From the NCBI RefSeq assembly GCF_000317065.1, contig NC_019701.1:4412001-4476000 (forward strand): DNA of 64,000 bases, written 5' to 3'. This DNA is from Pseudanabaena sp. PCC 7367. Its GTDB lineage: Bacteria > Cyanobacteriota > Cyanobacteriia > Pseudanabaenales > Pseudanabaenaceae. Every line of letters starts with the position of its first letter. The first letter of the stretch is position 1. Below the pieces are notes generated by a model, which had not been told where the DNA came from, searched no databases, and saw only the letters and a list, made by a program, of their open reading frames with translations. Position numbers and translations under genes: made by a program. Below are positions 1,525 through 61,867 of this stretch, piece by piece.

Positions 1525-1565
1525 AATAAGGGATATTTGGGTAACTAAACTAAGCATCCCTTATT
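1525..1565 (+). terminator. Hairpin after trpB, terminator-like
   Basis: A perfect 10-bp inverted repeat (AATAAGGGAT at 1525-1534, ATCCCTTATT at 1556-1565) with a 21-nt loop begins 25 nt after the trpB stop. There is no clear U-run after it, so it may act as a 3' end stabiliser rather than a classic intrinsic terminator. The dispersed repeat element begins at its right edge. Confidence 0.5.
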
Positions 1566-1681
1566 GCGTTGCATATTGCTAAGATAATTTAACAATTAAG
1601 CGATCGGTCTAACTGAGTATCAGACATATGTTTGATATTTTTGTTGATGGCATTTTTATCCTTGGGTTATGAAATGCCCCT
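1566..1681 (+). repeat. Dispersed intergenic element, copy A
   Basis: This stretch aligns without gaps to 38126-38241. The best-conserved core is around CAGACATATGTTTGATATTT. The right end, GGCATTT...AAATGCC, can form a hairpin in both copies, with a C-G pair in one and a T-G pair in the other. It lies between trpB and tRNA-Ala. Its function is unknown. Confidence 0.7.
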
Positions 1682-1736
1682 TATTAAGCACAATCCAATT
1701 TATATTGCACAACTGCTCAAATTTACTCAAATCTAA

Positions 1737-1809
1737 TGGAGGTAAGCGGACTCGAACCGCTGACTTTCACAATGCCATTGTGACACTCTACCAACTGAGT
1801 TATACCCCC
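1737..1809 (-). tRNA. tRNA-Ala(GGC)
   Basis: A complete 73-nt cloverleaf reads on the minus strand. The acceptor stem GGGGGTA pairs with TACCTCC and contains the G3:U70 wobble pair that identifies alanine tRNAs. The anticodon stem TCACA/TGTGA encloses the loop ATGGCAT, giving anticodon GGC (GCC/GCU codons). The T-arm GCGGTTCGAGTCCGC is canonical and the discriminator is A. The 3' CCA is not encoded. There is no intron. Confidence 0.97.
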
Positions 1810-2062
1810 AGGTTCATTGCGGTTTTAAATCATAACAAGGTTTAGGTAATAAGGCAATAATTCTTTTCAAGATTAGTTATTTGCATTCTGAGTAGTCAAA
1901 ATCACACCTCAACTATGCAAGATTAGGGGTTTTGACTTTTGAGTCGTAACATCCGCAGGGAGAGGCGATCGGCACTTATGCAACAAAAAAATTGCCAGCA
2001 GATATTTTAGTAAATTGGTATATGCCCCTATGTCTTAGGTTAGAATAGGGTGTAAGTAATTT

Positions 2063-37568: not shown

Positions 37569-38075
37569 ATGCGCACCATTGATTCTATTAGTATTAAGGC
37601 CTATAAACTTTCCGAAACCGTTGCCGATGATGTCTGGCGGATGGTGAATGAGTGGGAACCGCTGGCGCAGAATAGTATAGGCAAAGAGGCGATCGTGGCG
37701 GCTGATAATATTGGCGCAAATATTTCCCAGGCTGTAGGCTGTCAATATGTGGCGGGTTATCAACATGGCTTGCGCATGGCCAGGGCAGCGGTATTTGCCA
37801 CCAGACATTGGCTACGGCGCGCCTATTACCGCAATCTAGCCACAGAGCGTCAGGCCGATCGAATTAAGCGCAATTTGGAAGAGATCTTGCGGCATCTAGA
37901 AAGTGGCCTGGAAACCTACAAGCATCACCCCACAAATTCTTTACTTGTGTCACCTTGGCAGGTCGATCGCTCGATCGCTCAAGAAATTAATGGCTTTCAA
38001 CCTAAAACCAATCGCAACGGCTATGACCATGCTGGGGCGATCGAGGTTGAATACCGCCATCCCTTTAATGACTAA
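37569..38075 (+). CDS. Four-helix-bundle protein (S23/IVS-type family)
   Basis: The 168-residue protein resembles the four-helix-bundle family first noticed as proteins encoded in 23S rRNA intervening sequences. Visible features are the N-terminal KAYKLSETVADDVWRMVNEW, then NSIGKEAIVAADNIGANISQAVGC (the usual family motif is S.P.NIAEG), ARAAVFATRHWLRRAYYRN, and a C-terminal helix NLEEILRHLESGLETYK. It has a longer C-terminal tail than usual. The function of the family is unknown. It begins 201 nt from the divergent trmB start. Confidence 0.75.
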   Translation: MRTIDSISIKAYKLSETVADDVWRMVNEWEPLAQNSIGKEAIVAADNIGANISQAVGCQYVAGYQHGLRMARAAVFATRHWLRRAYYRNLATERQADRIKRNLEEILRHLESGLETYKHHPTNSLLVSPWQVDRSIAQEINGFQPKTNRNGYDHAGAIEVEYRHPFND

Positions 38076-38125
38076 TCCAATCATTGACTCCGCGCTCAAA
38101 TGTTCAAATAAATGCTCAAATAATG

Positions 38126-38241
38126 GCATTGCAAATGTTTAAAATGATTTGATAATCAAGCAATCGGTTAAATTAAGATTCAGACATGTGCTTGATATTT
38201 TTGGTAGCGGTATTTTCATCCATGGATGATGAAATGCCCAG
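38126..38241 (+). repeat. Dispersed intergenic element, copy B
   Basis: This copy aligns without gaps to 1566-1681 with roughly three quarters of positions identical. Core matches include TCAGACAT, TTGATATTTTTG and ATGAAATGCCC. The right end can fold as GGTATTT(T)CATC with GATGAAATGCC around CATG. It lies in the spacer between the four-helix-bundle gene and transaldolase. Confidence 0.7.
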
Positions 38242-38501
38242 ATCTTAGCTGCGATCGTAATGCTTTTGTCTTGATCATTAACGTTCACAAGAGTTCTAAT
38301 GATCAGCGAAATAATCACAGAGGTGAAACTAATGCTTTGCTGGCTGGTTATTCAATCAACATTAATTGGCTATTCATACTAAATTCAAAATTACACCTTA
38401 AGCTGAACAACAAAGACTATGTGAAACAGAGCTAGTTATTCAAAACCAGCGTTTAACATAGGGACATAAGCAGTTATTAACGCAAAGCAGGTAGAGTAAT
38501 C
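38242..38501. other. Spacer upstream of transaldolase
   Basis: No gene that I can support; a 69-codon frame begins inside the repeat element but has no recognisable features. Confidence 0.4.
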
Positions 38502-39638
38502 ATGACAACTAATCATCTCCTCGAACTACGCGACCACGGCCAGAGCGTATGGCTGGATAACCTGAGCCGATCGATTATTCAATCGGGCGAGCTAGCCGAA
38601 ATGATCGAGAATCAAGGCATAAGAGGCATTACCTCGAATCCAGCAATTTTTCAAAAAGCGATCGCTGGTAATGAAGTCTACGACGAAGCGATTTTAGCTG
38701 GAATTAAAGCTGGCAAATCTGCTAACGAAATCTATGAATCTCTGGCATTTAAAGACATTCAAGATGCCGCCGACTTACTAAAGCCAATTTATGAAGCCTC
38801 CGGTGGCCAAGATGGCTATGTATCGATCGAAGTTTCGCCTAAGCTAGCCCGTGATACCACTGGCACGATCGCCGAGGCGCTGCGATTTTCGGAGGCAGTC
38901 GATCGCCCCAATGTCATGATTAAGATCCCTGGCACGGCGGAAGGCTTCCCAGCGATCGAGCGGGTTACGGCTGAGGGTATTCCGGTTAATGTGACCCTGC
39001 TATTTGCGGTCGAAGATTATGAAAAATCCGCCTGGGCATACATCAAGGGCTTGGAATCGAGAGTGGCTCAAGGCAAGGACATCAGCAAGGTGACTTCGGT
39101 GGCCAGCTTTTTCCTCAGCCGGATTGATGTTTTAGTAGACCAAAAACTAGAGGACTTGCTAGCACAAACTAGTGATGAAGCCGAGAAAACCACGATCAAT
39201 TCCTTGATGGGCAAGGTGGCGATCGCCAATGCCAAAATTGCTTATCAGACGTATAAGGACATCTATGCCAGCGATCGTTGGCAGGCTCTGCTAGCCAAGG
39301 GTGCTAATGAGCAGCGCTTGCTGTGGGCTAGTACCAGCACCAAGAACCCCACCTACAGCGATGTGATGTATGTGGATAATCTGGTCGGAGATCATACTGT
39401 CAACACCATGCCCCCGGAAACGATCGCCGCCTGTATTGATCACTGTGACATTGAAGATCGAATTGAAATTAATGTCGAGCAAGCCGAAGAAGTAGTTGCC
39501 ACTGTGCAAAAACTGGGCATCGATCTAAATCAAGTAATGAAGCAGCTTGAGGACGAAGGGATCGAAAAGTTTATTAAACCCTTTGATTCACTGATGGGCT
39601 CCCTCGAAGAAAAGATGCAGCAACTCACCCCAGCATAG
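38502..39638 (+). CDS. tal: Transaldolase
   Basis: Transaldolase moves a dihydroxyacetone unit between sugar phosphates in the pentose phosphate pathway. The 378-residue form is the longer bacterial type. The Schiff-base lysine is in PNVMIKIPGTAEG (about residue 145). Other family motifs are IRGITSNPAIFQKAIAG near the N-terminus, VTSVASFFLSRIDVLVD near 200-215, and LLWASTSTKNPTYSDVMYVDNLVG near 270-295. An insertion sequence lies 117 bp after its stop codon and may alter its 3' end. Confidence 0.97.
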   Translation: MTTNHLLELRDHGQSVWLDNLSRSIIQSGELAEMIENQGIRGITSNPAIFQKAIAGNEVYDEAILAGIKAGKSANEIYESLAFKDIQDAADLLKPIYEASGGQDGYVSIEVSPKLARDTTGTIAEALRFSEAVDRPNVMIKIPGTAEGFPAIERVTAEGIPVNVTLLFAVEDYEKSAWAYIKGLESRVAQGKDISKVTSVASFFLSRIDVLVDQKLEDLLAQTSDEAEKTTINSLMGKVAIANAKIAYQTYKDIYASDRWQALLAKGANEQRLLWASTSTKNPTYSDVMYVDNLVGDHTVNTMPPETIAACIDHCDIEDRIEINVEQAEEVVATVQKLGIDLNQVMKQLEDEGIEKFIKPFDSLMGSLEEKMQQLTPA

Positions 39639-39746
39639 TCTGTGTGCAGTTGGAGTTGGCACTGGGACAGGTTAATGATTGAGTGAAGAACTGATACGGA
39701 ACTGATACCATGTATATGCTTGAGAATTTTGTTAGCTGTTTTTATA

Positions 39747-39755
39747 CCTGGAACG
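39747..39755. repeat. Target-site duplication, left of the IS
   Basis: CCTGGAACG directly abuts the left end of the insertion sequence and is repeated exactly at 40807-40815. Confidence 0.9.
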
Positions 39756-40806
39756 GGCTTTGTTGCATGAATCGAAGAAAGGGACAATACTCCTGCCAAG
39801 ATTCTCCAATTTAGTCTTCAACCAGGTAAGAATCAGGCTTGCATAGCATCATCATACGATTAAGAGCCACGCACTGTAAAAACAGCTCCACCGCTTGATT
39901 ATCAAAATTTCGTGAGCGTAACTTACCGCCAAAAATAGTCTTCAATCTAAACATAGTAGTCTCTGCCAGTGAGCGCCGATGATAGCCAGTCTCTCGTTTC
40001 CACTTGGCACGACCAACCTTACGGATGCGCCGTAAATTTTGGTCACGCGGATGCGGTGGTGCTTTACAATTGCCATGTTGCCAAATTTTGGCATTTTTGC
40101 GTGGTGGAATTACTGACTGGGCTTGTCTAGCAGAGATTGCATCATAACAGTCACGATGGTCATACGCACCATCCCCAGATACTTGCTTAATTTCATCCTC
40201 AATCTGATTAAGCAGTTCAGGTAGAATTTGGCCATCATGATATTGGTTGCTGGTAACCGCTGCCGCAAGAATTTCACCGCTTGACTCATCTACGCCCAGA
40301 TGAATTTTACGCCAGGTGCGACGCTTACCTATGCCATGCTGACGCGTTTTCCACTCTCCCTCTCCGTAAACTTTCACGCCGGTGCTATCAACCACCACAT
40401 GTCTCGCTGCCTGAGTCTTTTGATGGGGTAACTCGATCGCTAATTTGCCCATCCGTCTTGAAACTGTGCTGTGGTCTGGCACCGGTAAGTCTATGTTCAT
40501 CAGGGTAAATAATGATTCGACCAAACCGGTGACTTGTCTGCCTGCCAATCCATATATGCTCTTGAGCATCGCAATCGTCGCAATCGCTTGGTCACTGTAT
40601 CTGTTTGATGCGCCTCTGTTGCCGGATCGCTCTGGCTCTAGCCACATCTCTATTGCCTCCTTGCTAATCCAGAAAATTAGACTTCCTCTCTGTTTGAGGC
40701 TTTTGTTATACTCTTGCCAGTTGCGGACGCGGTATTGTGGGGGTTTTTTCATGGTAGTTAAAACGTACCATAACCTACCGCTCCGTTTCTTTTATGCAAC
40801 AACGCC
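39756..40806 (-). mobile_element. Complete IS5-family (IS903 group) insertion sequence
   Basis: A 1051-bp element. The left end GGCTTTGTTGCATGAATC and the right end (reverse complement GGCGTTGTTGCATAAAAG) are imperfect terminal inverted repeats, closely resembling those of IS903 (GGCTTTGTTGAATAAATC). It is flanked by the 9-bp direct repeat CCTGGAACG, the duplication length known for the IS903 group. One intact transposase gene fills it on the minus strand. The perfect target duplication suggests a fairly recent insertion. Confidence 0.93.
39811..40752 (-). CDS. IS5/IS903-type DDE transposase
   Basis: The 313-residue transposase cuts and joins IS ends. The DDE residues appear as D in HVVVDSTGVKVYGEGEW (about 143), D in GDGAYDHRDCYDAI (about 195), and E in RRSLAETTMFRLKTIFGGKL (about 265), where the E-helix carries R and K in the family pattern. 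The N-terminus has YNKSLKQRGSLIFWISKEAIEMW, usual for the group. The frame is intact with no frameshift. Confidence 0.95.
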   Translation of the reverse strand: MKKPPQYRVRNWQEYNKSLKQRGSLIFWISKEAIEMWLEPERSGNRGASNRYSDQAIATIAMLKSIYGLAGRQVTGLVESLFTLMNIDLPVPDHSTVSRRMGKLAIELPHQKTQAARHVVVDSTGVKVYGEGEWKTRQHGIGKRRTWRKIHLGVDESSGEILAAAVTSNQYHDGQILPELLNQIEDEIKQVSGDGAYDHRDCYDAISARQAQSVIPPRKNAKIWQHGNCKAPPHPRDQNLRRIRKVGRAKWKRETGYHRRSLAETTMFRLKTIFGGKLRSRNFDNQAVELFLQCVALNRMMMLCKPDSYLVED

Positions 40807-61592: not shown

Positions 61593-61867
61593 TGATTGGC
61601 TTTATGGAATGACGGGATGAGGCGGCGATCCAGCGATTGGTTAAATTGGAATCCGTTATGTATTTATTTGTATTCTTTCTTGCCAGCATTTTGCCCTTTG
61701 GATCTGGCAATACCTGATTTATGGCAGGATATTTAAGCTTTAGCCAAAGTTTAATTTCTTCACTCACCCAACTGGATGAGGCAAACGGATGAGGCAAGCT
61801 GCCAAATCTTTTGGTTATGCTCATCAATGGCCTAGAAAGAAACCCAAAAAAAGGGGAGGATTGAACC

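Follow-up and report, generated by a model that had tools for sequence, protein, structure and literature searches.

The window analysed here, a 64,000-nucleotide stretch of the Pseudanabaena sp. PCC 7367 genome, carries a 116-bp intergenic element at 1566-1681 and again at 38126-38241, which raises the question of what kind of element it is. An earlier note on this DNA had offered three readings: a small RNA family, a terminator-like element or a MITE-type relic. We aligned the two copies and found that the gap-free match is real, with 86/116 identical positions (BLASTN E about 1e-17); on either strand, no other ungapped match of copy 1 within the window exceeded 54/116 (mean 29.8, sd 4.9). 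Gene and domain calls placed both copies in spacers, as claimed. Copy 1 has trpB (PF00291) on one side and tRNA-Ala (1736-1810, minus strand) on the other, and copy 2 is flanked by a four-helix-bundle gene (PF05635/TIGR02436) and by tal (PF00923). The gene upstream of copy 2 (37569-38075) is a free-standing gene for a PF05635 four-helix-bundle protein of the 23S rRNA intervening-sequence family.

We searched the whole genome, comprising the chromosome (C2, 4,557,046 bases) and a second contig (C1, 328,634 bases), with the 116-bp query and obtained 31 places at E<=1. The weakest 6 were left out and the other 25 were aligned. A covariance model, R1, was built from alignment A2 of the 19 fuller copies, all of which are also part of the sequence searched. 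R1 gave 60 rows at E<=1 and at least 46 at E<=1e-3, with rough E-values; the figure of 46 may be low, because scoring covered 150 of the 3883 first-look candidates. All 46 copies are on the chromosome (21 on the plus and 25 on the minus strand) and none on C1. The two copies first noticed are thus a real pair, but they represent just the local share of a roughly 46-copy family. An immobile two-copy segmental duplication had been named as the outcome that would leave the element without function, and the presence of just two strong copies in the window would fit it; the genome search and the covariance model gave many further copies, with unrelated flanks and fixed ends, which refutes this reading and leaves it with virtually no chance of being correct.

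The family consensus is 113 bp long and begins with GGCGTTGCACATTGGTGGGATGAT, its reverse complement with GGCATTGCATAATCCAGGGATGAA. Its terminal inverted repeats are imperfect (GGCRTTGCA...), with consensus ends GGCGTTGCACATTGGTGGGATGA and GGCATTGCATAATCCAGGGATGA. The median copy length is 113 bp, and 31/46 copies fall within 109-115 bp. Mean pairwise identity is 72% among the best 23 copies and 64% among all 46. The element has no coding capacity: none of the 46 copies lies within an open stretch of at least 150 codons, compared with 755/1000 random window sites used as a control. At C2:3461729-3461839 and C2:3284292-3284402 we observed a further, small MITE subfamily, which shares the ends but has a different core. 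Its two copies are 97% identical and have target duplications of 7/8 and 8/8, so this subfamily is probably younger. On C1, which holds no full MITE at E<=1e-3, there is a solo left-type MITE/IS1 end at C1:242539-242550 (L042).

We compared the 8-mers immediately left and right of each copy. The results showed agreement of at least 7/8 in 15/46 copies, compared with 4/2070 mismatched pairings; the duplication was perfect in six copies (C2:4554232, 419264, 4359806, 2021685, 3064995 and 3284292), and in 31/46 no duplication of at least 7/8 was present. For duplication lengths of 6, 7, 9 and 10, agreement was found in 0 or 1 of 46 copies. An earlier 28-copy set, from which L024 had been left out and to which L036, L039, L044 and L077 had been added, gave z 9.3 at 8 bp and at most 2.0 for all other lengths from 3 to 12. 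The GC content was 17% in the duplications and 40% in the flanks. No empty orthologous site was seen in the genomes searched, which included no other of the genus.

Both window copies are full length at 114 bp on the plus strand, and R1 places copy 1 at 1565-1678 (119.5 bits; also in alignment A2) and copy 2 at 38125-38238 (106.4 bits). The element is therefore where it was first noted, but the noted span is off by one base on the left and 3 bases too long on the right. At the model borders the target duplication agrees at 2/8 positions for copy 1 and 5/8 for copy 2, neither of them clean. Read directly in the sequence, copy 1 has a direct repeat CCCTTATT at 1558-1565 (plus strand), overlapping the element border by one base, and at 1678-1685 (plus strand), so that its presence on both flanks requires sharing one border base per end; it is probably a decayed target duplication. 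The window copies are old insertions whose target duplications are worn. A third, decayed MITE copy was found at 61598-61714 on the plus strand (R1 35.6 bits; E 1.2e-5 in the window and 9.5e-4 in the genome).

Just after tal, on the plus strand at 39653-39764, R1 also marked a tentative fourth copy (30.6 bits; E 1.7e-4 in the window and 0.013 in the genome), which we regard as a probable decayed member of the family. A 1051-bp insertion sequence on the minus strand (39756-40806) is nested in it and has ends GGCTTTGTTGCAT and GGCGTTGTTGCAT, a PF13737/PF01609 transposase and a 9-bp target duplication, CCTGGAACG. When the flanks of this insertion sequence were joined, the MITE right end was not clearly restored.

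To locate the source of the ends, we searched for the MITE-end pattern in the own genome and found 108 matches with at most 1 mismatch (reversed control 13). One of them lies at C2:625968 and forms the left end of a broken IS1; it closely matches the MITE right end and contains the insA start codon. This relic is frameshifted and truncated, and it is the sole IS1 found in the own genome with a MITE end; an intact autonomous element with MITE ends was not found there. Such a parent in the own genome would help the assignment to IS1 but does not strictly define it. The own genome also has 13 intact IS1 copies on C2 (L061-L073; about 783 bp, in two groups), 8 of which have exact 8/8 duplications. 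We considered these as parents and rejected them, as their ends, GGTAGT..., differ.

Among 38 family genomes, the MITE end was present in the own genome only. Among 388 class genomes, GGCRTTGCATAATNNAGGGATGAAATG with at most 2 mismatches was present in 23, and the reversed control had 0 among the matches listed; IS1 frames are present at a number of these loci. In another cyanobacterium, genome G169, intact 756-bp IS1-family elements match both MITE ends, with the MITE left end corresponding to the IS1 right end (24/29) and the MITE right end to the IS1 left end (83% over 24 bp). The G169 transposase scored 254 bits for NF033558, the IS1 family (cut-off 100), and 4/10 examined IS1 copies of this genome have exact 8/8 duplications. 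In copy 1, the left terminal repeat (1565-1593, plus strand; consensus 1-29, 24/29) is the counterpart of the parent-group IS1 right end. Its right terminal region (1649-1678, plus strand) corresponds to the parent-group left end, including the insA start codon, and contains the noted hairpin of copy 1; this assignment draws on the match of family consensus 90-113 and 84-113 to IS1 left ends and on the hairpin pair counts. Cyanobacterial IS1 elements such as the G169 element and the MITE are thus alike in their terminal regions (24-30 bp) and their 8-bp duplications, whereas the MITE is 113 bp long, lacks insA and insB and has an unrelated core of about 55 bp, which matched none of the IS1 elements tested.

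Since both ends match G169 IS1 ends that come with 8-bp duplications, and the right end matches the relic in the own genome, we assign the family to IS1-type MITEs. Very probably the element is a non-coding, non-autonomous 113-bp MITE made of two IS1-family ends around a core of about 55 bp that resembles none of the IS1 elements tested. The 'MITE-type relic' of the earlier note is strongly supported, by the terminal inverted repeats, the exact 8-bp duplications, the roughly 46 scattered intergenic copies and the IS1-family ends. The MITE could alternatively have been moved by a non-IS1 transposase that also gives 8-bp duplications, with its IS1-like ends arising by convergence. Other families with 8-bp duplications exist (ISL3, IS1595 and IS6), and an intact IS1 with MITE ends was not found in the own genome, as this alternative would have it; however, a correctly oriented IS1 match of 24-30 bp exists at both ends and takes in the bases around the insA start codon, and the occurrence of GGCRTTGCATAATNNAGGGATGAAATG across the class, in several cases at loci with IS1 frames, also speaks against it. 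We consider such convergence very improbable.

For the IS1-type MITE, a mechanism can be proposed from these comparisons. The IS1 transposase of a full-length element, acting in trans, would bind the terminal repeats of about 24 bp and would excise or copy the element. Joining to AT-rich intergenic DNA by an 8-bp staggered cut would then leave the 8-bp target duplications. In this way IS1 transposase would most likely have spread the MITE about fifty-fold through the chromosome. The family is probably now immobile in the own genome, given an average difference of about 28% among the best 23 copies and a frameshifted, truncated relic as the sole matching IS1 found there. The family thus provides an example of an IS1-type MITE with a decayed parent, and its ends together with the 8-bp signature offer an easy handle for testing IS1 transposase in trans.

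The noted hairpin is GG[C/T]ATTT paired with AAATGCC. The 7-bp pairing is present in both window copies (in copy 2 as GGTATTT...AAATGCC within the right terminal region, 38209-38238, plus strand), but the family as a whole does not conserve it as a hairpin. On A2, whose 19 fuller copies rather than all 46 supply the pair counts, the seven noted pairs form in 76.3% of cells; shuffles gave 75.2%, and 128/500 were as high. The seventh pair forms in 3/19 aligned copies, and AAATGCC, as in the window copies, is exceptional, most copies in A2 having CAATGCC. The C-to-T change that had looked compensatory does keep a G-U pair, but there is no covariation above shuffles. The hairpin follows from the make-up of the element, since its arm GGCATTT, beside the insA start codon, forms the inner margin of the left IS1 end. 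Pairing between the element ends is stronger, found in 86.4% of cells (16 end pairs, 19 copies), and 4/500 shuffles were as high. Inverted ends would be expected to pair in this way; as the copies are related, such pairing is no proof of RNA.

A small RNA family, that is, a conserved non-coding RNA gene of about 100 nt present in many spacers, would account for an intergenic element conserved over its whole length, many copies of which are detected by one model, and which can fold through its terminal repeats with pairing slightly above shuffles. However, the 8-bp duplications at 15/46 copies are the mark of insertion and not of an RNA gene, and the hairpin covaries no better than shuffles. 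Rfam gathering and permissive searches gave no relevant match, and no family reached its gathering score. No promoter-like site was present in 1400-1760; 38050-38520 has one weak site, in copy 2 (9/12 matches), where shuffles average 2.1. We give the small RNA reading very little credence. A terminator-like element, the remaining reading, found no backing either: no intrinsic terminator (a GC stem followed by a T run) was detected inside 1565-1678 or 38125-38238, and the single terminator-like site, at 38431-38450, lies outside the element. The possible 'small RNA' is thereby replaced by a transposon relic, and about 46 spacers across the genome can be annotated accordingly.

A regulatory or RNA-processing role has been proposed for some MITEs, and the copies could be transposed MITEs that now serve as such a signal beside genes and are kept there by selection. 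The absence of all 46 copies from long frames, the well-conserved core GATCGGTCAAACTGA and the position of some copies within 10-60 bases of a long open reading frame would agree with this. However, the loss of insertions in genes yields an intergenic bias as well. Neighbouring genes show no favoured orientation: of the first 30 copies, 26 had both neighbours called, and these pairs were convergent in 9 cases, divergent in 8 and co-directional in 9. The lack of a terminator-like site in both window copies also counts against such a role. A regulatory role for these MITE copies therefore appears unlikely.

We found no MITE copies outside the own genome among 388 class genomes, which held no second genome of the genus. 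A search of the 388 class genomes with the consensus DNA, which scores 2 candidates per genome and so lists just 2 copies for the own genome, returned two 20-21-bp hits elsewhere, at E about 1e-3. These two hits were taken as chance. A wide pattern for the MITE core had 0 matches in a wider contig collection from which records near the own genome were possibly excluded. In the literature searched, the cyanobacterial MITEs listed were of other types, and no IS1-type one was among them. The IS1-type MITE family, first recognised in the own genome, is new, and the kind of element is already known. According to PMC11448079, Microcystis aeruginosa PCC 7806 has a 187-nt MITE with ISL3-type ends in 31-33 identical copies. 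Both it and the 113-bp MITE are cyanobacterial, non-autonomous, dispersed and mostly intergenic, with small inverted ends; the PCC 7806 element is ISL3-type with identical copies, whereas the 113-bp MITE is IS1-type, diverged and probably dead. PMC11448079 also mentions ISMae3-like IS1 elements; the 8-bp duplications were established here for the G169 element, not for ISMae3. Nezha, cited in PMC10969869, is also a MITE of cyanobacteria, and it is likened to the 113-bp MITE by description, not by sequence.

On the second contig we observed two genes that encode a C5-cytosine methyltransferase with an in-frame fusion to the DNA-binding domain of IS1 InsA, at C1:44239-45477 (L128:505-1746) and C1:112748-113980 (L127:1501-2730). 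The first copy matched TIGR00675 at 1e-68 and NF033558 at 4e-25. The two genes share 92% identity, and dN/dS is low, about 0.1, in the methyltransferase and InsA parts alike. The InsA domain belongs to the group of the MITE parent and shares 63% identity with the IS1 relic and 59% with the G169 IS1. A methyltransferase match at E<=1e-40 was present in 66/388 class genomes, the own genome included. Among the matches listed, those outside the own genome all end by residue 343, and the fusion is therefore seen in the own genome only. The InsA domain was absent from the C-terminus of nine class methyltransferases inspected, short patterns found no relatives of the fusion in the wider contig collection, and no report of a methyltransferase-InsA fusion was found in the literature. 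A domesticated InsA domain might still recognise MITE/IS1 ends, with the roughly 46 copies offering sites at which a targeted methyltransferase docks or brings about silencing; we regard this as quite unlikely. If it were true that the domain still reads MITE ends, the fusion would be the more surprising part of the present analysis. Just downstream of one fusion gene, L128:1944-3218 on the minus strand holds a 424-aa frame, which we take to be a putative group II intron reverse transcriptase-like protein with an HNH-like end.
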